Source: an uncultured Spirochaeta sp. (lineage in GTDB: Bacteria > Spirochaetota > Spirochaetia > DTKZ01). From it: a stretch of DNA of 44,368 bases. A model generated the notes under the pieces. The model ran no database searches. It was not told where the DNA came from and saw nothing but the letters and a program-made list of their open reading frames with translations. The position numbers and the translations under genes were made by a program. Of this stretch, positions 4,206-15,605 are shown one piece after another; within the stretch, counting starts at the first letter, position 1, and each line of letters opens with the position of its first letter. The stretch lies in the NCBI GenBank assembly GCA_937140905.1, contig CAKZQO010000134.1, positions 1 through 44,368 on the forward strand, given 5' to 3'.

Positions 4206-5384
4206 ATGAAGAAGATCCTGACAGGAGTCCTGTTTGGGGTTTGCTGCCTTCTTGTAGTCGTGACCACGGGGATTACAGAGGAGCCTAAAACTGAAGCTCC
4301 CCGTTCAGAGGGCACCTCTGCGGAAGGGGAACCCGAAGACCTCACATTAACGCAGAAAGATCTACGGATAGAACTCAGTCTCGAAGGAGGATACCACCTC
4401 TGGATCAAGAAAAAACCTGGCATAGGTTCAGTTCTTCTCACCGAATCCACCGAAGATCCCGCTCGCAAGGTAGCTAGTTATGCTTACCGGGCAAAATCCT
4501 ATAACCCCTACAATGGGGACGAGATACGAATCCTTAATGGTCAACCCCTCCTTCCCGGTCCTGGTCGGTATTTTCTGGTAGATTCCACTCCAGAACCCGA
4601 TGAAGTTTTTGGCCTAGCGTTCCATATCTTCGTACCTTACGTGCTGGAATACGGGTATCCGTGGAGTCGGCAGGGAGAGATGGAAGTCGTGGATGGAACC
4701 TTCCTCAACATACGAGCCTTTGCGAAACCACATGCGGATTACACGGGACCCTTCAAAGACAACCCCTTCGTGTTTCGAATCCTCCAGCGTTCCATCCCGT
4801 TACCAAAAACAGAAAAAATCATGCCCGACGTGAAAGAGGAGTTCTCCAAGATCACGGAGGAAACCAAGGGGGAGACCTTCGAATCCACCGGCGAGAAGGA
4901 CATGATCGACAAGATTGCCGCCATCATGGACAAGCAAAAGGGAAAAACCCTCGATATGGTGATCGCCTTGGACACAACTCAGAGCATGGAAGATGATATC
5001 CCTCATATCCGTAAACTCTTAGTTCCCATGGTAGCGGAACGGATCAAAGGATTCGATAAGATTCGAATCGGACTAACCTTATACCGGGATTATTTCGAAG
5101 AATACCTGACCCGTTCTTTACCCTTTACCAGTGATCTAAACCAACTCCAGAGAATGGTGGACTCCGTACGAGTAGCGGGAGGAAGGGATATTCCCGAAGC
5201 GGTACATGAAGCCATCTACGCGGCCATACATAATTACAAGTGGGAAGCGGAAAGCCGGGCGATTATCGTGATTGGAGACGCTCCTCCGCATCCCATTCCC
5301 CGTGGGGAAATAACCGAAGCCATGGTGAAGCGGGACGCAGAAGCAAAGAATATCCTGGTCTATACGATCATTCTCCCCCACTAA
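4206..5384 (+). CDS. exported von Willebrand factor A domain protein
   Basis: 392 residues. Residues 1-24 form a signal peptide. Residues 45-205 form a beta-rich N-terminal region of unknown fold. Residues 248-390 form a vWA domain with a metal-ion-dependent adhesion site: the DTTQS motif at 256-260 and later acidic residues in GGRDIPEA (Asp328) and GDAPP (Asp358). vWA domains bind protein partners through a divalent cation, so this is probably a periplasmic or surface interaction or assembly factor; no partner is evident. It ends 8 bases from the convergent TPR lipoprotein gene. The start is supported by the signal peptide; a Shine-Dalgarno sequence is weak (AGAAG). Confidence 0.8.
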   Translation: MKKILTGVLFGVCCLLVVVTTGITEEPKTEAPRSEGTSAEGEPEDLTLTQKDLRIELSLEGGYHLWIKKKPGIGSVLLTESTEDPARKVASYAYRAKSYNPYNGDEIRILNGQPLLPGPGRYFLVDSTPEPDEVFGLAFHIFVPYVLEYGYPWSRQGEMEVVDGTFLNIRAFAKPHADYTGPFKDNPFVFRILQRSIPLPKTEKIMPDVKEEFSKITEETKGETFESTGEKDMIDKIAAIMDKQKGKTLDMVIALDTTQSMEDDIPHIRKLLVPMVAERIKGFDKIRIGLTLYRDYFEEYLTRSLPFTSDLNQLQRMVDSVRVAGGRDIPEAVHEAIYAAIHNYKWEAESRAIIVIGDAPPHPIPRGEITEAMVKRDAEAKNILVYTIILPH

Positions 5385-5392
5385 GTAGGACC

Positions 5393-5827
5393 TTATGGAT
5401 TGGGAGTTTTCCCTCGAGGAGTAGATTGTTCCTGGATCTTTCTCAAGACTTTTTCCGCCAGGACTTTCGGCCATTGGGGAACGGAAAGGGGATTCTCAAA
5501 CTTTTTGTAGGTATCCAACAGCTCTTCGAAGAGCTTCTTCGATTCGGCATACTGTTCCTTTTTGTAGAGGATAAAGGCGATTTCGTACCGAGCGGCCAGC
5601 ACATTGGGCAGGTCATTCGGATACCGTTCGAGGAAGGTTCTATAGTAGATCAATGCGTTGTCCCAGCGGTAGTTGTCCGATTCCTCCTGGGCCCGCTGGA
5701 AGAATTGCATGGGAGTCAATCCTTCCGGAATCACCGGGGGAGTAGAACTACAGGAATTGAGAGCCCATAGAAGCATGAACAGGATTCCTAGAAAACGCCA
5801 CACTCTTCCGGAACATAAAAACCGCAT
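5393..5827 (-). CDS. TPR-containing lipoprotein
   Basis: 144 residues. A hydrophobic signal (residues 9-24) ends in a lipobox-like LNSC, so Cys26 should be lipidated by Lgt, whose gene is at 35 kb. The mature part has about two tetratricopeptide repeats (ALIYYRTFLERYPND; ARYEIAFILYKKEQYAESKKLFEELL), a helical scaffold for protein interaction in the periplasm. AGGA lies 9 bases before the ATG. The gene stands alone, convergent with the vWA gene and divergent from the M20 hydrolase gene. Confidence 0.75.
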   Translation of the reverse strand: MRFLCSGRVWRFLGILFMLLWALNSCSSTPPVIPEGLTPMQFFQRAQEESDNYRWDNALIYYRTFLERYPNDLPNVLAARYEIAFILYKKEQYAESKKLFEELLDTYKKFENPLSVPQWPKVLAEKVLRKIQEQSTPRGKTPNP

Positions 5828-5915: not shown

Positions 5916-7244
5916 ATGCCTAGACTCATTGAAAGCACGAAACAGAGAATTGAAGAAATTTTTTCTCAACTGGAAAAGATCGGAAATCTAGGATCCTCCC
6001 GAGAAGAAGGATTTACCCGAGCCGCCTGGTCTAACGAGGAAACCAGAGGCATGGAGGTGATCCAACGGATCGCGGAAAAAGCAGGAATGAAATCCTACTG
6101 GGATGGGGTTGGGAACCTGTTTCTCTCTACTCCGGTAGGAGCTTCGGAAACTGTCCAGGTGGGTTCGCACCTGGATACCGTGCCTCATGGGGGAAACTAC
6201 GATGGAGCAGCCGGCATCGTGGCAGGCTTGGATGCCATTCTCCAGCTGCGTCCCATGTGGGAGAAACTGAAACGTCGGTTGGAACTGGTAATTTGGCGTG
6301 GGGAAGAGTCCGCTTGTTACGGCGCCGTGTGCAAGGGAAGCCAAGCCGCCTTCGGGTTGAACGATCCATCCATTCTGGGTAGAACCTACCTCGGGCAAAC
6401 CCTGGAAGAAGCGATAAAATCCCAGGGATTCGACCCTTCCTATATTCAGGAACGAAAGCCCACCCTTGATCAGAGTCGGATCGATAGCATCGCGGCACAC
6501 CTGGAACTCCACATTGAACAGGCTAAGCGCCTCGAAACCGACGGGATTCCCATCGGCGTGGTATCCAGCATCCGGGGTACCATCCGCCTCCGGGTAGAAG
6601 TCCAAGGCGAAGCGAACCATTCCGGGGGCACCCCCATGGGAATCCGGTACCGAAAAGACGCCAATCTCGCCATGGCCTATATGCAAGTGGCTCTCCATGA
6701 AGAGTGCACCTACGCCCTGGAGAAAGGGTTCGATATCGTTCAAACCGTGGGGGTCATCAATGCCGATGAGGATTACAACAAGAAAAATCCCCTAGTATGG
6801 GAGAACGCTCTCACAAAGGTTAGTCCTTTTGGGTACTTTACCCTCGATGTGCGAAGCAACGACCCCCGGTTCTTGCCAAACTATCTGAAAACTGCCGAAG
6901 AAATTATCCGAAAGAAAGCAGAACGATACAACGTGGAGGTACGGATCGAGCGGCTCCTGTCCCTAGAACCCGTAGAACGACTGGATCCTACTGTGCAGGG
7001 GATACTGGAAAGTGCCTGTAGGGATCTCAAGATCCCCTACCTGGTAATGCCCAGCGGAGCCTTGCATGACGCGGCCGTGGTTGCAGGAGTCCGCAAAAGC
7101 AATGGGACTTCCATTCCCGTGGGCATGCTCTTCATACCCTGTAAGGACGGGATCAGTCATAACCCCGCTGAGTTCGCCTCTAGCCAGGATATCGCTCGAG
7201 GAGCCGTGGTTTTATCCAACGCCTTGTATAGGCTGGCAAGATAG
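5916..7244 (+). CDS. M20-family amidohydrolase (allantoate amidohydrolase / N-carbamoyl amino acid hydrolase type)
   Basis: 442 residues, full length for the hydantoinase/carbamoylase branch of peptidase family M20. These cytoplasmic dimetal enzymes cleave N-carbamoyl or ureido groups (allantoate, ureidoglycolate, N-carbamoyl amino acids). Metal-site motifs are present in order: SHLDTVPHGG (His85), NYDG (Asp96), GEESACYG (Glu130/131), HLELHIEQ (His199), GALHDAAVVA and GISHNPAEF (His415). The dimerisation insert (about 218-330) is present. Two usual positions differ: HIEQG is HIEQA, and the Ser after the IFVP-like strand is Cys (LFIPCKDG). The exact substrate is open. It is monocistronic, and its 3' end faces pyrD across the A+T-rich cassette. 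Confidence 0.85.
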   Translation: MPRLIESTKQRIEEIFSQLEKIGNLGSSREEGFTRAAWSNEETRGMEVIQRIAEKAGMKSYWDGVGNLFLSTPVGASETVQVGSHLDTVPHGGNYDGAAGIVAGLDAILQLRPMWEKLKRRLELVIWRGEESACYGAVCKGSQAAFGLNDPSILGRTYLGQTLEEAIKSQGFDPSYIQERKPTLDQSRIDSIAAHLELHIEQAKRLETDGIPIGVVSSIRGTIRLRVEVQGEANHSGGTPMGIRYRKDANLAMAYMQVALHEECTYALEKGFDIVQTVGVINADEDYNKKNPLVWENALTKVSPFGYFTLDVRSNDPRFLPNYLKTAEEIIRKKAERYNVEVRIERLLSLEPVERLDPTVQGILESACRDLKIPYLVMPSGALHDAAVVAGVRKSNGTSIPVGMLFIPCKDGISHNPAEFASSQDIARGAVVLSNALYRLAR

Positions 7245-7410
7245 AGAGACTCGTGGTTGGCGATAAAAGGGAATAGAAAACTTGTTAGGAATTGAAAGCG
7301 ACAAAAAATAAGATCCGTCATGGGAAGCAATCTTGGCAAGTAATATCTTAGATAGAAAACTACCCCTCTAGTGTACATATTTCTATATCCAATGAAAAGG
7401 AGGGAAAAAT

Positions 7411-7689
7411 TTAAAGCCTATTTTGATATTTATTAGCTTTTCTCCATTTTGCTTGATATTGCTGAGTAACAAAAAAGACTTTGACGTCGGCTTGGTATTC
7501 CTGGTTGACCCAAAATATCTTTGAGGAGGCACGATATTCTTGATCTACATAGAACCAATTTGCATCACCTTGTGCTTGATACTCTTGATTCACAACATAA
7601 ACAGTAAGATCTGCTTGGTGTTCTTGTGATACTTTAAATACCTTTACTGTTGCACGATAAGGTTGATCTACAACAAATATTTTCGCAAT
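7411..7689 (-). CDS. small six-repeat protein, septoil-knot / DUF6150-like, apparent ATT start
   Basis: Reading from ATT at 7689 gives 92 residues beginning (I/M)AKIFVVDQPYRA and made of six copies of a 12-15 residue unit, roughly K-[IV]-[FY]-x-V-x-Q-x-Y-x-A, ending AKWRKANKYQNRL. This is the pattern I know from DUF6150 / 7(1) septoil-knot proteins, whose repeats form a small knotted beta structure of unknown function. No ATG exists at the expected place: a perfect AAAGGAGG (7698-7705) lies 8 bases before ATT GCG AAA, exactly where homologues would have ATG GCG AAA. Either ATT is the start codon, or the start was lost and a weak internal GTG (7593) is used, which would drop two and a half repeats. 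No signal peptide is present. The nuclease gene lies upstream. Confidence 0.7.
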   Translation of the reverse strand: MAKIFVVDQPYRATVKVFKVSQEHQADLTVYVVNQEYQAQGDANWFYVDQEYRASSKIFWVNQEYQADVKVFFVTQQYQAKWRKANKYQNRL

Positions 7690-7697
7690 TATTAAAA

Positions 7698-7705
7698 CCT
7701 CCTTT
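7698..7705 (-). promoter_or_regulatory. strong Shine-Dalgarno sequence that fixes the ATT start
   Basis: AAAGGAGG on the minus strand, 8 bases before the ATT codon at 7689-7687. It is one of the best ribosome binding sites in the window and has no ATG, GTG or TTG in the right frame at usable distance. An ATA codon lies 5 bases away in the same frame. Confidence 0.7.
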
Positions 7706-7723
7706 CATTATATTAACTTTTCA

Positions 7724-7753
7724 AGTATATGCTATCGATAAAGCAGGGTACAA
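7724..7753 (-). promoter_or_regulatory. candidate promoter for the six-repeat protein gene
   Basis: On the minus strand TTGTAC (7753-7748), an 18-base spacer and TATACT (7729-7724). A transcript would start near 7717 and carry the AAAGGAGG site about 12 bases from its 5' end. Confidence 0.45.
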
Positions 7754-7778
7754 TAATCTATCACAATATTTTATCTCT

Positions 7779-8801
7779 TTATTCAGATTTTTTAAGGTAT
7801 ATTTGTAACTCTTTTAGCAATATCTCAGCCTCATCTTTCGAAAGATATGGGACTTTGATAGTACGAGCCCAAAAAAATCTCTTACCCATAATTTCACATA
7901 CCCTTTGAAAAGGCATAGCTTTTATTTCTTTTCCTTTTTCTGGTATAGCTGTAAGAAATTCAATATCTCTATACCAAGTTTCATTATTATCTTTTTTTAT
8001 ATTACCTTTTTTAACTCTCCCAGCAGCAATAAGGCCTGTCCATTTGTGAGAGAAAAAGACTATATCTCCCGGATAAATATATTCTATAAACCGTGTTGCA
8101 TCACCAAAAGCAGCAACAACAGAATTTTCCATCATATACCAGATTGCATCTTCGTCATAACTTCTATTAGTGTCAAATAAGATCCCTTTAATTTCGCTCG
8201 GATTCCTATGTTTGTCATATGGAAGTGCGAAGAACTCAAAGTACTTTTCACCATTAATGTCATAAATTCTATACGGAAGAAACTCAATTGAAATACCTTG
8301 ACGTTTCCAATAGTCTACTGCATTAACAAGACTGTCATCAGCAGCACTTCCAATTATTATAATATGTTGTGTTTGGTTAAAATCATTTGCCTCCAATTGA
8401 TGTTCTAGATTAAATGCCTCTTTATGAGCCAAACGCAAATCGATTTCACTTTTAGTGTATTGTTGGTACTTATTCTGAAGAATAGAAAATGTCCACTTTC
8501 CTGCATCTTGTACATATCGCAAAGCTTGATGCACTGCATCTTTCCCAGCTACTCCTCTTTTTAATTCAAAAATTACCAAATTGCCTTTTTCATTTAAAGC
8601 ATAAATATCAGCTTCAGCTTGATATTTACGCTCACGAAATATCGGCATTAAGCTCGCTTCTTCAAAAAGAACTTCTAAAATATTAGACGCAATCATTTCT
8701 TCTAAATCTTTTTCTAGATTTCCAAAACTAGTAAAATCTTTAAATTCTGACAGTTCGAGTGTGTAATACTTATCATCAACTAATTTTATTCTATATAACA
8801 T
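7779..8801 (-). CDS. NucS-like PD-(D/E)XK nuclease with C-terminal EVE/PUA-like domain
   Basis: 340 residues. The N-terminal part (about 25-195) carries a PD-(D/E)XK core of the NucS/DUF91 kind: LEKDLEEMI (Glu29 or Glu35), EADIYALN (Asp65), then VIFELKRG (Glu79-x-Lys81), followed by a helix AVHQALRYVQDA. The C-terminal part (about 225-318), with YPGDIVFFSHKWTGLIAAGRV and later WYRDIEFLTAIP, resembles EVE/PUA-like folds that read modified bases. The combination suggests a modification-dependent (type IV-like) restriction or other DNA-defence nuclease; this is inference. GAGGAG lies 7 bases before the ATG. The gene is A+T-rich and is 89 bases upstream of the six-repeat gene on the same strand. 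Confidence 0.65.
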   Translation of the reverse strand: MLYRIKLVDDKYYTLELSEFKDFTSFGNLEKDLEEMIASNILEVLFEEASLMPIFRERKYQAEADIYALNEKGNLVIFELKRGVAGKDAVHQALRYVQDAGKWTFSILQNKYQQYTKSEIDLRLAHKEAFNLEHQLEANDFNQTQHIIIIGSAADDSLVNAVDYWKRQGISIEFLPYRIYDINGEKYFEFFALPYDKHRNPSEIKGILFDTNRSYDEDAIWYMMENSVVAAFGDATRFIEYIYPGDIVFFSHKWTGLIAAGRVKKGNIKKDNNETWYRDIEFLTAIPEKGKEIKAMPFQRVCEIMGKRFFWARTIKVPYLSKDEAEILLKELQIYLKKSE

Positions 8802-8854
8802 TTTTATTCTCCTCTAAATTGCCTGAGAATAAGAATGAATAACCTACATCTATT

Positions 8855-8860
8855 ATTATA
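8855..8860 (-). promoter_or_regulatory. candidate -10 box for the nuclease gene
   Basis: Perfect TATAAT read on the minus strand. It gives a leader of about 47 bases. The -35 region at 17 bases (TTTAGA) matches only half of the consensus. Confidence 0.3.
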
Positions 8861-9050
8861 CGCTTTAATCATAAAAATCTAAATCTTTCTTCAATCTTTT
8901 TTCTATATTATCTTTTTCCATGAGATACGGTTTTAGTTTCGTTTATTTCTAAATATATTGTAAATAACATGGATTCTTTGTAGCATTCTTAAGTCAGAAG
9001 TTCTAATAATGGATAATCCGCTTGTTCCTTTTTCCTCTCATTTCCGTTTA

Positions 9051-9087
9051 AAAATAAGCTTTTTAATCTTATTTTAGGCATTGCCTA
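9051..9087 (-). terminator. terminator after pyrD
   Basis: Directly behind the pyrD stop, the minus strand reads a small hairpin TAGGC-AAT-GCCTA (9087-9075), then an 8-bp stem AAAATAAG / CTTATTTT with a 9-base loop (9075-9051) continuing into T residues. The second stem is symmetric enough to work in either direction. It marks the edge of the A+T-rich cassette. Confidence 0.5.
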
Positions 9088-9090
9088 TTT

Positions 9091-10044
9091 TTATTTTACA
9101 TGCGCCAACCCGATGATTTCCCGCACTGATGAATAGCCTTCTTCTGCTAAGTAGGTCCGTATCCCCTCGATCGTTCGTTTCATGGTGAAGGGATCGATGA
9201 AGTTGTACATCCCCACGGCAACGGCTGAGGCACCGGCCAATAGGAACTCGATGGCTGCGGCAGGGCCATCGATCCCCCCCATTCCGATAATGGGGATCTT
9301 TACCACTTCATGGGCAGAGTATACGGCCCAAACTGCCAGAGGGCGAATGGCAGGGCCGGATAACCCCCCAGTGATATTTCCCAAGGCCGGTCGTTTCTTT
9401 TTGATATCGATGGCCATTCCCTTGTACGTGTTGATCATAGACAAGGCGGCTGCGCCTGCCCTTTCTGCGGTACGAGCCATATCCGCGATATCGGTAACTA
9501 CTGGGGATAGCTTGGCTATCACGGGGAGTTTCACCCGGGAGACCACTGCCGATACTACCCGCTCCAAGGTCTTTTCTTCCGTAGACCAGGGAATTCCCTC
9601 ACTCAGGTTTGGGCAGGATAAGTTCAATTCCAAAAGATCCGCCATTCCCGTAGCTTCGATCCGTTCAGCGAGTTCGATCCATTCCTCCATCGTTTCCCCT
9701 GCGATGCTTACCACCACGGGCGGTCCGAGTCGCCTGAGAGCCGGCAACTTGTCGCGAATAAACACTTCTGCCCCATCACTCGGTATTCCAATAGCGTTCA
9801 ACATCCCGCAGGGAGTTTCCCAAATCCGAGGAGGCGGATTTCCCGGCCGAGGATGGAGGAAGATCGTCTTGTTGATCACCGCTCCCAGCTCCGAAGGGGA
9901 AAAGAAATTATCGTGGATTTCATCTACCTCATAGGCACCGGAAGCGGGCATCACGGGGTTTGGGAAGCGAACGCCCGCGATGTCTACCGATAGATCGGGG
10001 GATACACTCGTTAGGCGGTCGCGGGAAAAGTCTTGCATTCTCAT
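9091..10044 (-). CDS. pyrD: dihydroorotate dehydrogenase B, catalytic subunit
   Basis: 317 residues from ATG 10044, whose ATGA overlaps the pyrK stop; longer in-frame readings run into pyrK coding sequence and are rejected. Class 1B enzyme oxidising dihydroorotate to orotate in pyrimidine synthesis, with FMN in a TIM barrel. Visible motifs: PNPVMPASGAYE near the N-terminus; LELNLSCPN with the catalytic-base Cys144; MINTYKGMAIDIKKKRP; GGLSGPAIRPLA; and the phosphate-binding GMGGIDGPAAAIEFLLAGASAVAVG. The pairing with PyrK, which passes electrons to NAD+, identifies class 1B. It is the last gene of the liv-pyr transcription unit and is followed by a terminator. Confidence 0.93.
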   Translation of the reverse strand: MRMQDFSRDRLTSVSPDLSVDIAGVRFPNPVMPASGAYEVDEIHDNFFSPSELGAVINKTIFLHPRPGNPPPRIWETPCGMLNAIGIPSDGAEVFIRDKLPALRRLGPPVVVSIAGETMEEWIELAERIEATGMADLLELNLSCPNLSEGIPWSTEEKTLERVVSAVVSRVKLPVIAKLSPVVTDIADMARTAERAGAAALSMINTYKGMAIDIKKKRPALGNITGGLSGPAIRPLAVWAVYSAHEVVKIPIIGMGGIDGPAAAIEFLLAGASAVAVGMYNFIDPFTMKRTIEGIRTYLAEEGYSSVREIIGLAHVK

Positions 10045-10829
10045 GGCTCTACTACCACGCTTCGGGAACGGAACACGGGACCATCCATGCACACGAGGAA
10101 GTATCCATCCTGTCCATCCTTTTTCACCGCGCACCCATGACAGTCCCCCATTCCGCACCCCATGTTCCCTTCCAGGAACAGGTAGCCCTTTACCTTTCCG
10201 GCCAGATCGAGGGCTTTCACATGCCTAGCGAACCGATGGGATCCACAGGTATAGACGGTGTCCACCTTACCCTCGCGGATCAGTTGATCCAGAATATCTG
10301 TCCCGTTCCCATGGTACCCTTCCGTTCCATCATCGGTGGCAATGAACACGTCGTTGGAAAACTCTTCCAGTAAAGCCCGACATACTAACCTAGATTTCGT
10401 GGAAGCCGAAAGAACCGTGTACACGGGTTTCTTTAGTTTGGATAATGTTTCCGCCAGAAAGACCACCGCCGCGGCACCGGCCCCCCGTACCAGTAGGGCC
10501 GTTCCCGCAGAATCAAACTCAGTGATGCTTTTCCCTAGAGGACCCGTTACGTAGAGGGAAGATCCCTTCTTGAGGGTGGAAAGGAGTCGCGTTCCCTTAC
10601 CCTCTACCTTGATGCAGAGCCGGAACACCCCTTTCAAAGGGTCAGCCAGCACGATGTCGAAGGGGCGGGGAAGGATCGGATCCCCCGTATGCCATCCCCG
10701 CACCATCACGAACTGCCCCGGACCAGCGGTTCGGGCAATCTGTTCTTCCCGGATCACTAAATGCACGTACCCTCTAGGGCTTTCCTTCCGGGACACTAAA
10801 GTTGCTTTCCGATACACCGGGACAGCCAT
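10041..10829 (-). CDS. pyrK: dihydroorotate dehydrogenase B, electron-transfer subunit
   Basis: 262 residues, with a ferredoxin-reductase-like FAD domain (about 1-100), an NAD-binding domain (about 105-215) and a [2Fe-2S] site near the C-terminus. The cluster motif is clear: NMGCGMGDCHGC and then the fourth cysteine in YFLVCMDGPVF. It carries electrons from PyrD FMN through the cluster and FAD to NAD+. Two usual motifs are altered: the flavin RPxS motif reads RPFD, and the glycine-rich GGGxGxAP stretch reads GAGAAAVVF. It overlaps pyrD by 4 bases and starts 40 bases after the binding-protein gene, so it is probably cotranscribed with the liv genes. No strong ribosome binding site is seen. Confidence 0.9.
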   Translation of the reverse strand: MAVPVYRKATLVSRKESPRGYVHLVIREEQIARTAGPGQFVMVRGWHTGDPILPRPFDIVLADPLKGVFRLCIKVEGKGTRLLSTLKKGSSLYVTGPLGKSITEFDSAGTALLVRGAGAAAVVFLAETLSKLKKPVYTVLSASTKSRLVCRALLEEFSNDVFIATDDGTEGYHGNGTDILDQLIREGKVDTVYTCGSHRFARHVKALDLAGKVKGYLFLEGNMGCGMGDCHGCAVKKDGQDGYFLVCMDGPVFRSRSVVVEP

Positions 10830-10869
10830 ACAAGAATTGAACCGTTAAATCAATTTCCGTATTCCAATC

Positions 10870-12093
10870 CTATTGCGGATTCGGATACATCACCTTCGCG
10901 CTAGCCGCGGCCTCAGGCCACACGGTTTGGATTTCTCCTTTCTGGATCTGGAAGGTAACCGCTCCACCCGCCATGTTCTGACCCGTAGCGTCCCACTTGG
11001 TAGGTCCCCAGAAGGTCACCCCATCGTAAGCCTGGAGGGCTGCCCTCACTTTGTCGGTTTCGATGGAACCCGCTTTCTCGATGGCTAACTGTAGGAGGTA
11101 TCCACCCTGGGAAGCGGCAGCGGCCTGGTAGGCAATCCCTGCCCCATACTTGGTTGTGTATTCCTTCGTATAGTCCTGAGCGCTTCCAAAGAAAGGATCC
11201 GAGTACTTCATCTGGGGCATCCACCAAGCCACGCCATAGATATAATCTGAATCCGCACCCAACGCATCCCGGAAATCCTTCAGTTCCGGACCCGTGGTGA
11301 ATCCAATGGCTTTCAGGTACACCTTCTGTTCCTTCAACTGGCGAACCGTAAGAATCGCTTCCTCCAGATACCCGGAACCGAGAAGGACTTCCGCTCCCGA
11401 GTTTTTAATCTTGAGGATCGTGGAGGAGAGATCCTTTACCCCTTTGGGATATACCTCGTAGTAGGCTACTTCAAACCCCTTGCTCTTCGCGTACTCTTGC
11501 GCTCCTTCCGCTACGGAAACGGGGAAGTTATCGTTGGGAGCGATGATGGCCAGCTTCTTGGGAGCTGGTTTCTGGGCCGCTAGCATATCGATGAAGCTGT
11601 AGAATATCTTCCGGCCGGGAGGTAGCACAGAAAACACGTTCTTGTACCCTCGACCATAAATATTGGAAGCGTTCGCCAAAGTGGCGATCGTAATGATGTT
11701 GTATTTCTCGCCTATGGCCGTAGTGGCAAAGGTAGGACCGCTTCCATAGGGACCTAGGAGGAAGTTTACTTTATCCTCAGTGATGAGTTTTTCCGTCAAC
11801 TTCGCGGAAGTCTGGTTGTCCGACTGATCATCGTAGTAGATGATCTCTACTTTCATCTTTTTCCCCCCAACGTTGATGCCCCCCGCTGCGTTCACCTTTT
11901 CCTTCCACAGTTCATACCCGTTCTTCATCATGTTCCCGAACCGGGCCAGGTTTCCCGTTAACGCTAGGGAAGCTCCAATTTTGATTACCTCTGGGCCTTT
12001 GGCAGCTTCCTTACCCCCTGCACCGAACAGGGCCCCGCTTGCTACTAAAAGAAGGGCCAGAACGAACGCAATCCCCATCTTCCATGGTTTCAT
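10870..12093 (-). CDS. liv-type ABC transporter substrate-binding protein
   Basis: 407 residues with a signal peptide (about 1-25, MKPWKMGIAFVLALLLVASG) and the type-I periplasmic binding fold of LivJ/AmiC-like proteins: IKIGASLALTGNLARFG, then VEIIYYDDQSDNQTSAKL, and LLGPYGSGPT in the ligand cleft. It captures a small ligand in the periplasm for the LivHMGF complex encoded just upstream. The ligand could be a branched-chain amino acid, but amides, urea and nucleobase-like compounds are also carried by this family. AGGAGG lies 6 bases before the ATG. Between livF and this gene there are two hairpins, which may raise its expression over the membrane components. Confidence 0.88.
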   Translation of the reverse strand: MKPWKMGIAFVLALLLVASGALFGAGGKEAAKGPEVIKIGASLALTGNLARFGNMMKNGYELWKEKVNAAGGINVGGKKMKVEIIYYDDQSDNQTSAKLTEKLITEDKVNFLLGPYGSGPTFATTAIGEKYNIITIATLANASNIYGRGYKNVFSVLPPGRKIFYSFIDMLAAQKPAPKKLAIIAPNDNFPVSVAEGAQEYAKSKGFEVAYYEVYPKGVKDLSSTILKIKNSGAEVLLGSGYLEEAILTVRQLKEQKVYLKAIGFTTGPELKDFRDALGADSDYIYGVAWWMPQMKYSDPFFGSAQDYTKEYTTKYGAGIAYQAAAASQGGYLLQLAIEKAGSIETDKVRAALQAYDGVTFWGPTKWDATGQNMAGGAVTFQIQKGEIQTVWPEAAASAKVMYPNPQ

Positions 12094-12125
12094 ACCGTTC
12101 CTCCTATGTGAAGACTATCAATTCT

Positions 12126-12142
12126 CCGGAGCCAGGCTCCGG
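12126..12142 (-). repeat. 17-base perfect palindrome in the binding-protein leader
   Basis: CCGGAGCC-A-GGCTCCGG, centred on 12134 and 41 bases before the ATG of the binding-protein gene. It could fold into an RNA hairpin that protects the 5' end of a processed mRNA, or be an operator. Confidence 0.45.
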
Positions 12143-12158
12143 TATAGAGCCTAAAACC

Positions 12159-12178
12159 AAACCGGAAGCGACCGGTTT
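12159..12178 (-). terminator. stem-loop after livF (weak terminator or processing site)
   Basis: On the minus strand a 7-bp stem AAACCGG / CCGGTTT with loop TCGCTT is followed by GGTTTT. It lies 70-90 bases downstream of the livF stop. The interrupted T run makes it a weak intrinsic terminator. Confidence 0.4.
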
Positions 12179-12249
12179 TCTGTTTTCCCTATTGAGCATG
12201 CCTGAGCTTGCCCAAAGCCGCCCCTTAAATAGAATCGCACCCCGAAAGT

Positions 12250-12957
12250 TTAAATCCCCAGGTATGCTTTTTGGATATCGGGGTTCGATAGGAGTTCCTT
12301 CGCGTCTCCCGACATAGCCACCTTCCCATGGACGAACACGTATCCTTTCTGGGCCAAGCTCAACGCCACCTGTACATCCTGGTCCACTAGGACGATGGTG
12401 ATGCCCCGGGTGCGATGGATATTTTCCAACACCTTTACGAGCGTGTCCACTACCACGGGAGCCAGTCCCAAGGATAACTCGTCCAACAGGAGAACCTTGG
12501 GAGCCGCCATCAGCCCTCGCCCCACGGCGCACATCTGGGCCTCTCCGCCCGAAAGGGTTCCAGCCAACTGTTTACGCCGTTCCTTCAATCGAGGTAGGAT
12601 CGCGTACACCCAATCCAGATCCTCTTTCACCTTCTTCCCGTCCTTACGAGTGTAGGCTCCCATCAGAAGGTTTTCTTCCACGGTGAGCCCACTGTATAGT
12701 TGCCGCCCCTCGGGAACCATCACGATTCCCATCTGCACCCGTTTGGGTTGGGGAACATTTTGGATTTCCTTTCCCTCGTATCGTATGATTCCCTTGAAGG
12801 GCTTAAGGGCACCCGCCACAGTGCGCATGAAAGTCGTCTTCCCCACCCCGTTGGAACCGATCAAAGCGGTGATGCTTCCTTGTTCGATTTCCACATTCAC
12901 GTCCCAGAGGATCTGTACATCCCCATATCCCGCGTGTAATCCTTCAACCTTCAACAT
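12250..12957 (-). CDS. livF: liv-type ABC transporter ATP-binding protein
   Basis: 235 residues, the usual LivF size. Cytoplasmic ATPase that powers the LivHM permease as a pair with LivG. Walker A GSNGVGKTTFMR, Q-loop in MVPEGRQLYSGLTVEENLLMGA (the EGR-LFxxLTV form typical of LivF), signature LSGGEAQM, Walker B VLLLDELSLGL and switch region VDQDV, where the usual H-loop histidine of LivF-type proteins is typically Q or N. It overlaps livG by 14 bases, implying translational coupling. It is followed by a weak stem-loop before the binding-protein gene. Confidence 0.92.
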   Translation of the reverse strand: MLKVEGLHAGYGDVQILWDVNVEIEQGSITALIGSNGVGKTTFMRTVAGALKPFKGIIRYEGKEIQNVPQPKRVQMGIVMVPEGRQLYSGLTVEENLLMGAYTRKDGKKVKEDLDWVYAILPRLKERRKQLAGTLSGGEAQMCAVGRGLMAAPKVLLLDELSLGLAPVVVDTLVKVLENIHRTRGITIVLVDQDVQVALSLAQKGYVFVHGKVAMSGDAKELLSNPDIQKAYLGI

Positions 12958-13708
12958 GCGCTCTCCCTTTCATCTTGGCATACCGTTCCCCTAGGTAGGC
13001 AGAAATTACCCGTTCATCCTTACTGATTTCTTCTGGCGAGCCTTCGGCGATCTTCTCCCCATGGTGTAGCACCATGACCCGGTGCGAAACTCCCATAATG
13101 GCCTTCATCACATGTTCTATGATCAGGATCGTACGGCCCTCCCGATTCAACTGCCGAATCAGCTCCATGATGGATTCTACCTCTGCCGTATTCAAGCCTG
13201 CCATCACTTCATCCAGCAAGATTAGCTCTGGATCCATCGCTAGAGCCCTAGCGAGTTCCAACCTCTTGCGCTCTGAAATATTGAGGTGTTCCACCCGTAG
13301 ATCTGCTTTCCCTTCCAGTCCTACCCGGGAAAGGATATGCCTTGTTTTTTCCCTAGCCTCCCGAGCATCCTTCATCTTGTCCTTTCCGAACAGTGCGCCG
13401 ATGGACACATTTTCCAGTACCGTCATCCCGGGAAAGGGCTTGACGATTTGGAAGGTTCGGGAGATCCCCCGCTCGGCGATCTGGAAAGGCTTCAAACCTG
13501 AAATTCGTTCACCCTTGAAAAAGATTTCCCCATCGGTCAAGGGTAGAGTTCCATTGATGAGGGAAAGGAGGGTAGTCTTTCCCGCTCCGTTTGGCCCAAT
13601 GATTCCAAGGATTTCCCCTCGTTTCACATCGAAATCCACCTGCCAGACTGCCCGCAACGCTCCAAAGCACTTAGTGACCTTCGTTCCTTTCAGGATACTT
13701 TCACGCAT
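12944..13708 (-). CDS. livG: liv-type ABC transporter ATP-binding protein
   Basis: 254 residues from ATG 13708, chosen because AAGGAGG lies 6 bases upstream and the longer reading runs through the end of livM. Walker A GPNGAGKTTLLSLING, Q-loop in ISRTFQIVKPFPGMTVLENV (the RTFQ form diagnostic of LivG), signature LNISERKRLELARAL, Walker B LILLDEVMAGLN and H-loop IIEHVMKAIM. The signature motif is degenerate (NISERK for LSGGQ), as is common in LivG. It partners LivF under the LivHM permease. It overlaps livM by 8 bases and livF by 14. Confidence 0.92.
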   Translation of the reverse strand: MRESILKGTKVTKCFGALRAVWQVDFDVKRGEILGIIGPNGAGKTTLLSLINGTLPLTDGEIFFKGERISGLKPFQIAERGISRTFQIVKPFPGMTVLENVSIGALFGKDKMKDAREAREKTRHILSRVGLEGKADLRVEHLNISERKRLELARALAMDPELILLDEVMAGLNTAEVESIMELIRQLNREGRTILIIEHVMKAIMGVSHRVMVLHHGEKIAEGSPEEISKDERVISAYLGERYAKMKGRAHVEG

Positions 13709-14735
13709 GAGGGTCCTCCTTGCCTTTGGAAGGACTAACATCGGGCTTATCGTTCGAAGAAACCCCTTTGGAAGAGTAGGATCCACCACCTAAGCGTACG
13801 GGAACAGGGGATAGCCAGGAGAAGAGGAGTTTCCAGTTCAAGTGCAAGACTCCTTTAGGCATGAAAAGTACCGCTAAAATTATAATGGTCCCGAGGATCC
13901 CTAAATGAAGGTTTATGAACTTGGACCACACCAACTCGGAGACGGTTTCCAAAATCACCGCCCCTACCACGGGGCCGAACACCGTTCCCATACCGCCGAT
14001 CAGGATAATGACGAACATGTTCACCACCCACATCACGTTAAACACGGTCGGCGGATCAATGTAACTGAACCAGTACGCGTACACCGAACCCACAAGGCCC
14101 GTGAATAGGGCGCTCAAGGACCATGAAATGATCTTGTATCGGGTAGTATCGATTCCCATTACGTTGGCCGCTTCCTCATCGGCCCGGATAGCCTTGAAGG
14201 CGTACCCGAGGCGATTCTTGTCCAGTTTCGCGACGAACGCAACCACCAGGATCACCATGAAAAGCATGGCGAAGTAGAAAAAGGTATTCACCACGAAAGG
14301 TTTGCCGGGAAAGGCAGGAACCGTGATTCCCTGACTTCCTCCGGTCAGGTCCGTCCACAAGTCTACAATTTGCCGAAAGGCTTCCATAGCCCCTAAGCTA
14401 CCCAAGGCAAAGTAATGACCCCGTAACCGTAGGAGGAGCAATCCCAACACGATGGCGAGGAGCACTGCCATTACCCCGGAGGCGGGAAAGGCAACCACGA
14501 AAGGTAGGTGAGTCTTCGTCATTAGGACCGCCGTGGTATACGCTCCTAAACCGAAGAAGATCATGTTCCCAAAGGCGGCGTATCCCGTGAATCCGGAAAT
14601 GATATTTAGCGCTGATGCGAGGGCCGCGAACATGAAAATCTGGGTCAACAATCGCACCCAGAATCCTGTCACCAGAAAGGGAAAACTTAAAAGGAGCAAG
14701 GCTCCGATGCTTACCCACACATATTTATTCTTCAT
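13701..14735 (-). CDS. livM: liv-type ABC transporter permease
   Basis: 344 residues with about nine membrane helices, an inner-membrane permease of the LivM type. The conserved cytoplasmic-loop region reads AVRADEEAANVMGIDTTRYK with a K for V variant at the start (KAIRADEEAA), followed by GLVGSVYAYWFSYIDPPTVF and VIILIGGMGTVFGPVVGAVI, all hallmarks of LivM. It pairs with LivH to form the channel fed by the downstream binding protein. The C-terminal tail (about 310-344) is a Ser/Gly/Lys-rich extension. It sits 9 bases after livH and overlaps livG by 8. Confidence 0.92.
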   Translation of the reverse strand: MKNKYVWVSIGALLLLSFPFLVTGFWVRLLTQIFMFAALASALNIISGFTGYAAFGNMIFFGLGAYTTAVLMTKTHLPFVVAFPASGVMAVLLAIVLGLLLLRLRGHYFALGSLGAMEAFRQIVDLWTDLTGGSQGITVPAFPGKPFVVNTFFYFAMLFMVILVVAFVAKLDKNRLGYAFKAIRADEEAANVMGIDTTRYKIISWSLSALFTGLVGSVYAYWFSYIDPPTVFNVMWVVNMFVIILIGGMGTVFGPVVGAVILETVSELVWSKFINLHLGILGTIIILAVLFMPKGVLHLNWKLLFSWLSPVPVRLGGGSYSSKGVSSNDKPDVSPSKGKEDPHA

Positions 14736-14744
14736 GACGCGCCC

Positions 14745-15605
14745 CTAATAGAATCGTTTCCCCAGCAATCCCTGGGGCCTTAAGACCAGTACCAGCACCA
14801 GGACGGCGAACCCTAAAAAATCCTGCACCGCCGATGGGAAAATGGCGGTACCGATGGTTTCCACTAACCCGAGGGTTAATCCCCCAACGAGGGCTCCTAC
14901 TGTACTCCCCAGCCCTCCTAGGATGGAGATCACGAAGGCTTTTCCCACCAATGCCCCTCCCGTGAAGGGATTGATGCTCATGATGGGAGAGATCAGTGCT
15001 CCAGCCGCCGCGGCTAGGGCGGCGCTCACCGCATAGGTAATGGCATAGATCTTGTCCACATCCACTCCCACTGTCTTGGCCCCCTCGAAGTTCAGCGCCG
15101 TCGCATTGATGGCGATCCCAACCTTGGTTTTTCGCATGAACAGGTAGAAAAGGAAGGTAACCAGCACCGCCACTCCAAAAATTCCGAACCGTACGAGAGG
15201 AATCACAAGACCGCCTAGCTCGAATCCCGCTGATGAGTAAGGTAGTTTGACGCTCTTATAGTCGGCAGTCCAGATGAGAAGACAGATGTTGGCGATAAGG
15301 ATCTGCAAACCAAAGGTGAAGGTGAGGGTGACAAACGAAGGCCCTCGAACCACCCGGTTGATGAGAAAGTACTGGATCCCATACGCGATGAGAAAAAGAG
15401 CGACCATCACGAGGGGGATCGAAAGGAAAGGATCGATCCGGTAGGCTGCGTAGAGGGTGAAAGAAAGGTAGGCTCCGATCATGATGAAGGATCCGTGGGC
15501 TAGGTTCACGATGTTCATCACCCCCCATACTAGGGAGAATCCGATCCCGATCATGGCATACACCGAGCCAAAGAGTATGCCGTTTACGATGGCTTGTAGA
15601 ATCAT
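14745..15605 (-). CDS. livH: liv-type ABC transporter permease
   Basis: 286 residues from ATG 15605 (GGAG just upstream); a TTG at 15614 is possible but has no ribosome binding site. About eight membrane helices. LivH hallmarks: MILQAIVNGILFGSVYAMIGIGFSLVWG in two overlapping parts, NLAHGSFIMIGAYLSF, and near the end ISILGGLGSTVGALVGGLTLGLVET. First gene of the minus-strand unit livH-livM-livG-livF-binding protein-pyrK-pyrD. Upstream lies a 157-base divergent gap with a tandem 13-base repeat that may be a regulatory site. Confidence 0.92.
   Translation of the reverse strand: MILQAIVNGILFGSVYAMIGIGFSLVWGVMNIVNLAHGSFIMIGAYLSFTLYAAYRIDPFLSIPLVMVALFLIAYGIQYFLINRVVRGPSFVTLTFTFGLQILIANICLLIWTADYKSVKLPYSSAGFELGGLVIPLVRFGIFGVAVLVTFLFYLFMRKTKVGIAINATALNFEGAKTVGVDVDKIYAITYAVSAALAAAAGALISPIMSINPFTGGALVGKAFVISILGGLGSTVGALVGGLTLGLVETIGTAIFPSAVQDFLGFAVLVLVLVLRPQGLLGKRFY

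Follow-up and report, generated by a model that had tools for sequence, protein, structure and literature searches.

An A+T-rich insert in the genome of an uncultured Spirochaeta sp. is probably an acquired defence gene with a passenger beside it. The insert lies between the genes for an M20-family peptidase and dihydroorotate dehydrogenase (pyrD), at positions 7246–9090 of the 44,368-nucleotide stretch of DNA that was analysed (the window). It contains two genes, both on the − strand, encoding a 340-aa nuclease and a 92-aa DUF6150 protein. In this reading, to which we give a probability of roughly 0.68, the 340-aa protein would by itself be a modification-dependent (type IV-like) restriction endonuclease. 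Its YTH/EVE-like C-terminal domain would recognise a modified base when phage or plasmid DNA enters the cell, and its NucS-type PD-(D/E)xK domain, probably dimeric, would cut that DNA nearby; host DNA, which does not carry the modification in the form recognised, would escape cleavage. Base reading, cutting, dimerisation and the anti-phage role are all activities that we infer for this protein.

The insert is real, recent and foreign, as supported by its composition, an empty site in a sister species and an incongruent nuclease tree. Its GC content (31.6% over 7260–9090) compares with 52.2% elsewhere (SD 1.5, minimum 49.0), measured over 390 other 1831-bp windows all within the same 44 kb, in line with the sharp compositional contrast noted when the DNA was first read from its letters. 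The M20 peptidase gene on the left (5916–7244, + strand; PF01546, 1e-18) and pyrD on the right (9091–10158, − strand; PF01180, 4.7e-67), beyond which comes the gene for its electron-transfer subunit, end at 7244 and 9091, respectively. The gap between them is therefore convergent, as that reading had it.

The same sequence-only reading had proposed that close relatives be inspected for an empty junction, and that conservation of both genes at this locus in all relatives would speak against a mobile cassette. In one sister species (G002), the junction is indeed empty, with about 38 bp between the two flanking genes; homology to the window breaks off at 7237 and picks up again at 9099. In another (G003), it is occupied by an unrelated 63-aa ribbon-helix-helix gene (RHH_3; L006 700–940). 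Conservation across relatives was not seen, and the nuclease is absent from all three further genomes sampled in the genus. With a lone RHH_3 gene in G003, the M20–pyrD junction is a variable insertion site. In a third sister species (G001; L005 2822–2858), the sequence directly after the M20 gene corresponds to the window from 10864 onwards, and pyrD and the electron-transfer subunit gene are absent from the M20 locus. No terminal repeats or target duplication were seen at the ends of the insert, and the window contains no tRNA and no Rfam match. A transposon or a tRNA-targeting island was rejected on these grounds, and the mechanism of insertion at the M20–pyrD site thus leaves no visible trace.

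The nuclease gene (7779–8801, − strand) was assigned from its matches to PF01939 and PDC-S11 and from Foldseek. The NucS_C family (PF01939) matches residues 30–98 with an E-value of 7.8e-6 in Pfam, and the protein also matches PRK04247. Against the NCBIfam NucS equivalog it scores 43.4 bits, far below the curated cut-off of 216 bits; the match begins at position 117 of the 250 in the profile, and the N-terminal NucS domain is absent. Alignment to NucS from Pyrococcus abyssi (2vld) likewise begins at residue 126 of the latter and places E30, D65, E79 and K81 opposite E127, D160, E174 and K176. These four residues and Q92 are invariant across 19 homologues. The PD-(D/E)xK catalytic residues are thus intact and define a nuclease core at residues 30–100 (8502–8714, − strand), with E79 and K81 forming the E-x-K pair. 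The window copy retains a full open frame and every catalytic residue.

The C-terminal domain (about residues 205–340; 7779–8189, − strand) was delimited from an AlphaFold2 model, Foldseek and conservation. The model was built from the 19 homologue sequences and has a mean pLDDT of 79. When compared with solved structures, it matches the YTH domain of Mmi1 (7.3e-5) and NucS (2.8e-4), as well as EndoMS, YTHDF3, the archaeal EVE protein PH1033 and, weakly, Shedu SduA (7.8e-3). The YTH/EVE match covers only part of the model, at 12–14% identity and a TM-score of 0.5–0.6 to the target. In sequence searches, the EVE family (PF01878) touches one of 19 members, with an E-value of 0.03, and none rises above the Pfam cut-off for EVE or YTH. 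The modelled structure thus supports the presence of a PUA-superfamily (EVE/YTH) reader domain that is recognised by fold rather than by sequence. W221, H252, W311 and R313 are conserved in this domain and are candidate base-pocket residues. The description of the protein as a NucS/EVE-like nuclease was largely right: the NucS residues are complete, and the comparison of the C-terminus with EVE and YTH folds, which the first reading had called for, turned up Mmi1, YTHDF3 and PH1033.

Restriction endonucleases that depend on modification and fuse an EVE domain to a PD-(D/E)xK or HNH nuclease are a known class (Bell et al. 2020, PMC7641849; VcaM4I, PMC7897488), and the mode of action proposed above is drawn by analogy with EVE– and YTH–nuclease fusions. 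The window protein resembles them in joining a PUA-superfamily modified-base reader to a nuclease in a single gene found in defence contexts, but its nuclease belongs specifically to the NucS type, and its reader is recognisable mainly by fold and lies nearer to YTH than to EVE in Foldseek. With the NucS/EndoMS mismatch endonucleases it shares the catalytic domain and the equivalents of E127, D160, E174 and K176, but it has the YTH/EVE-like domain at its C-terminus in place of any N-terminal NucS domain. The PADLOC model PDC-S11, a candidate single-gene phage defence, matches residues 28–201 with an E-value of 2e-21; the match spans only the nuclease and middle part and leaves the C-terminal domain outside, and the PDC-S11 family is itself, to our knowledge, uncharacterised. 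Shedu SduA is also a single-gene defence nuclease of the PD-(D/E)xK type, but it has other accessory domains, and no SduA HMM matches the window protein.

A search of genome contigs with the single protein gave no match, and a search with an alignment as the query gave 19 loci. Eighteen of these are 53–74% identical to the window nuclease and come from Desulfobacterota, Pseudomonadota, Verrucomicrobiota, Acidobacteriota and Bacteroidota; the remaining one is a shorter spirochaete copy with 37% identity. Two Caballeronia plasmids also carry a homologue (65% identity). Within the phylum of the window, matches with E ≤ 1e-3 occur in 8 of 393 genomes and are mostly distant. The nuclease tree is incongruent with the species: the Desulfonatronospira copy is nearest to the window nuclease, and a Bacteroidota copy is nested in a gammaproteobacterial group with full support. 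As judged from these sequences, the distribution is what an accessory gene exchanged among distant hosts would show. No relatives were found in phage records or in IMG/VR contigs, and a phage-borne origin of the nuclease is thus unsupported.

In several lineages, the sequences identify the homologues as integron gene cassettes. Many of their flanks show integron core sites: GTTATGT lies about 18 nt upstream of the start codon, and ACATAAC overlaps the stop codon. The two heptamers are complementary at all seven positions in four loci (L026, L028, L033 and L036) and at six of seven in three more (L027, L040 and L044), and the second overlaps the nuclease stop in the same register in all paired loci except L036. 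A fold-based scan for attC-like hairpins found 23 on the plus strand in about 209 kb. At that density, chance would place about 0.1 of them at the 26 gene edges; six were seen there. In Leucothrix pacifica (L033), hairpins at 9890–9982 and 11015–11070 bracket the nuclease (10001–11020), and the next attC-like site (15017–15086) follows the Gabija genes. The Stutzerimonas copy (L036) has an attC at 9899–9982 just before the nuclease, within an attC array, and lies downstream of an intI gene on the opposite strand (4591–5520, −). L026, L027 and L028 have one attC each at a nuclease edge. An IntI scoring over the curated cut-off was found in 9 of 20 carrier genomes or records, compared with none of 14 control genomes. 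In L027 (9709–11240), the nuclease cassette sits between apparent fragments of an IS3-type transposase, with orfA before it and an orfB-like fragment after it.

The window copy may once have been an integron cassette as well. A GTTATTC heptamer (8837–8843, − strand), 35 nt before the nuclease start, is a possible, weak relic of an integron R' core. It is complementary at six of seven positions to a GAATAAA that overlaps the nuclease stop, a match that 5% of shuffles reach, and the two share the register of the complete R'/R'' pairs in L026, L028 and L033. The attC scan found no site in the insert, and the 74 intergenic nucleotides between its two genes fold no better than shuffles (z −0.34) and show no attC fold; the case for a cassette past of the window copy itself thus comes from the 6/7 heptamer match. 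No IntI was detected in the genome of the window. All TIGR02249 matches there and in its family of genomes fall under the cut-off and were read as XerC-like recombinases.

The neighbouring genes of the homologues that were screened with PADLOC and Pfam had been chosen by eye, not at random, so the defence context is a strong lead rather than a measured enrichment. A complete Gabija system (GajA, 1.2e-268; GajB, 5.1e-199) directly follows the Leucothrix copy, a GajA-like protein is found near the Saprospiraceae copy, GmrSD near that of Rheinheimera and HsdR near that of Desulfuromonadales. The Desulfonatronospira copy has a CAP12-type TIR protein and HsdM nearby, and ThsB of Thoeris (2.4e-106) adjoins the copy on a Caballeronia plasmid. 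In Paraburkholderia dilworthii, a Shedu SduA gene split in two frames (L034 8507–9744) precedes the nuclease. At the Leucothrix locus (11015–15086), the complete GajA and GajB genes lie between two attC-like sites, as if they formed one large integron cassette. At the Caballeronia locus (L022 10876–13005), 97 bp separate the ThsB-type TIR gene from the nuclease on the same strand, and ThsA is not annotated near the pair.

The smaller gene of the insert (7411–7689, − strand) encodes six repeats, as had been claimed, and matches DUF6150 (PF19647) with an E-value of 7e-23 in Pfam; the protein has no signal peptide. Its frame lacks an ATG, GTG or TTG at the expected N-terminus, and the likely start is an ATT at 7687–7689, 8 nt after an AGGAGG ribosome-binding site (7698–7703, − strand) read from the sequence. 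The frame reads (ATT)-AKIFVVDQ, and a relative begins MAKLFLV. Given this relative and the spacing of the AGGAGG, the ATT represents either rare initiation at this codon or the decay of a former ATG. DUF6150 occurs in 3 of 393 genomes of the window's phylum, its own included, and in 13 of 247 Bacteroidota. Its relatives mostly have a signal-peptide-like N-terminus, and all four loci examined at length lie among ordinary cellular (housekeeping) genes. As regards the putative septoil (7_1) knot in its backbone, suggested when the DNA was first read, a single-sequence structure model reached a pLDDT of only 41, no solved structure related to DUF6150 by sequence was found, and the term “septoil” did not appear in the protein literature searched.

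The sequence-only reading saw in the two genes a small mobile defence cassette. The recent foreign insertion and the defence context of the nuclease have held up, but the partnership with DUF6150 has not, and defence neighbours were found around nuclease homologues. A single functional two-gene system, with the repeat protein as partner or inhibitor, would fit the two genes being adjacent and sharing strand, base composition and insert. Against it, no DUF6150 turned up in any of the 20 genomes or records carrying a homologue of the nuclease, and no nuclease in any of the 15 DUF6150 genomes, counts that are drawn from limited genome collections. The intergenic gap of about 88 bp, the non-standard start codon and the mostly exported, housekeeping-associated relatives of DUF6150 also make such a system quite improbable. 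The simplest reading of the insert is two passengers in one insert, with the DUF6150 gene probably an independent passenger beside the nuclease. That foreign DNA had been falsely joined into a metagenome-assembled contig might be suspected from the abrupt change in composition and from the draft state of the genome (324 contigs, 3.6% contamination). However, the synteny with the sister species picks up beyond the insert exactly at pyrD, and G003 carries other cargo at the same junction. A chimeric contig is very improbable, because two false joins would have had to recreate the native gene order.

The other alternatives accept the insertion and concern the role of the nuclease. It could be a transferred DNA-repair enzyme, a mismatch or lesion nuclease like NucS/EndoMS, to which its catalytic domain is indeed closest, rather than a defence gene. 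This is unlikely, since the NucS N-terminal domain is missing, the equivalog score is 43 against a cut-off of 216 bits and a YTH/EVE-like domain has been added; the distribution is patchy and accessory, with mostly distant matches in the 8 of 393 phylum genomes, and homologues occur in integron cassettes and beside defence genes. Alternatively, the nuclease might be a sensor or accessory of a TIR-based (Thoeris-like or CBASS-like) system whose partner has been lost from the window and whose gene is decaying. The ThsB gene that directly adjoins the Caballeronia copy and the CAP12-TIR gene near the Desulfonatronospira copy point this way, as does a more distant NucS-domain protein in Haladaptatus near a TIR gene. 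Nevertheless, most homologues, including the integron cassette copies, have no adjoining TIR gene as far as seen, and the intact frame and catalytic residues of the window copy are at odds with decay, which together render a lost TIR partner improbable.

For the restriction endonuclease, the proposed course of events is that its gene family moves between phyla, travelling in several lineages on integron cassettes, and that in this spirochaete, where no IntI was detected, the gene landed as an isolated insert in a convergent gap that is neutral. A more specific version is tentative, and we would sooner doubt it than rely on it: the single gene would combine a NucS nuclease with a YTH-like reader of m6A or of a phage hypermodification, would spread mainly as an integron cassette and would seed integron-free lineages by secondary capture. 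If so, the nuclease would belong to the integron-borne anti-phage repertoire alongside Gabija.

EVE–PD-(D/E)xK fusions were already known, and what is new is a well-defined member in which the nuclease is of the NucS type and the reader leans towards YTH. The occurrence of this nuclease family as an integron gene cassette is likewise new in this analysis, and the published census of EVE fusions mentions neither NucS nor integrons (0 occurrences; Bell et al., PMC7641849); no priority is claimed for integron-borne defence as such. If the restriction endonuclease reading is true, it would add a type IV-like restriction enzyme that is compact, encoded by one gene and unusual in its pairing of reader and cutter, for which about 20 close homologues would provide a ready set for biochemistry. 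It would also strengthen the case for integron cassettes as a traffic route of phage defence genes, and the window would be a clean, sister-species-controlled case in which a gene of this kind has entered a genome with no detected integron integrase.
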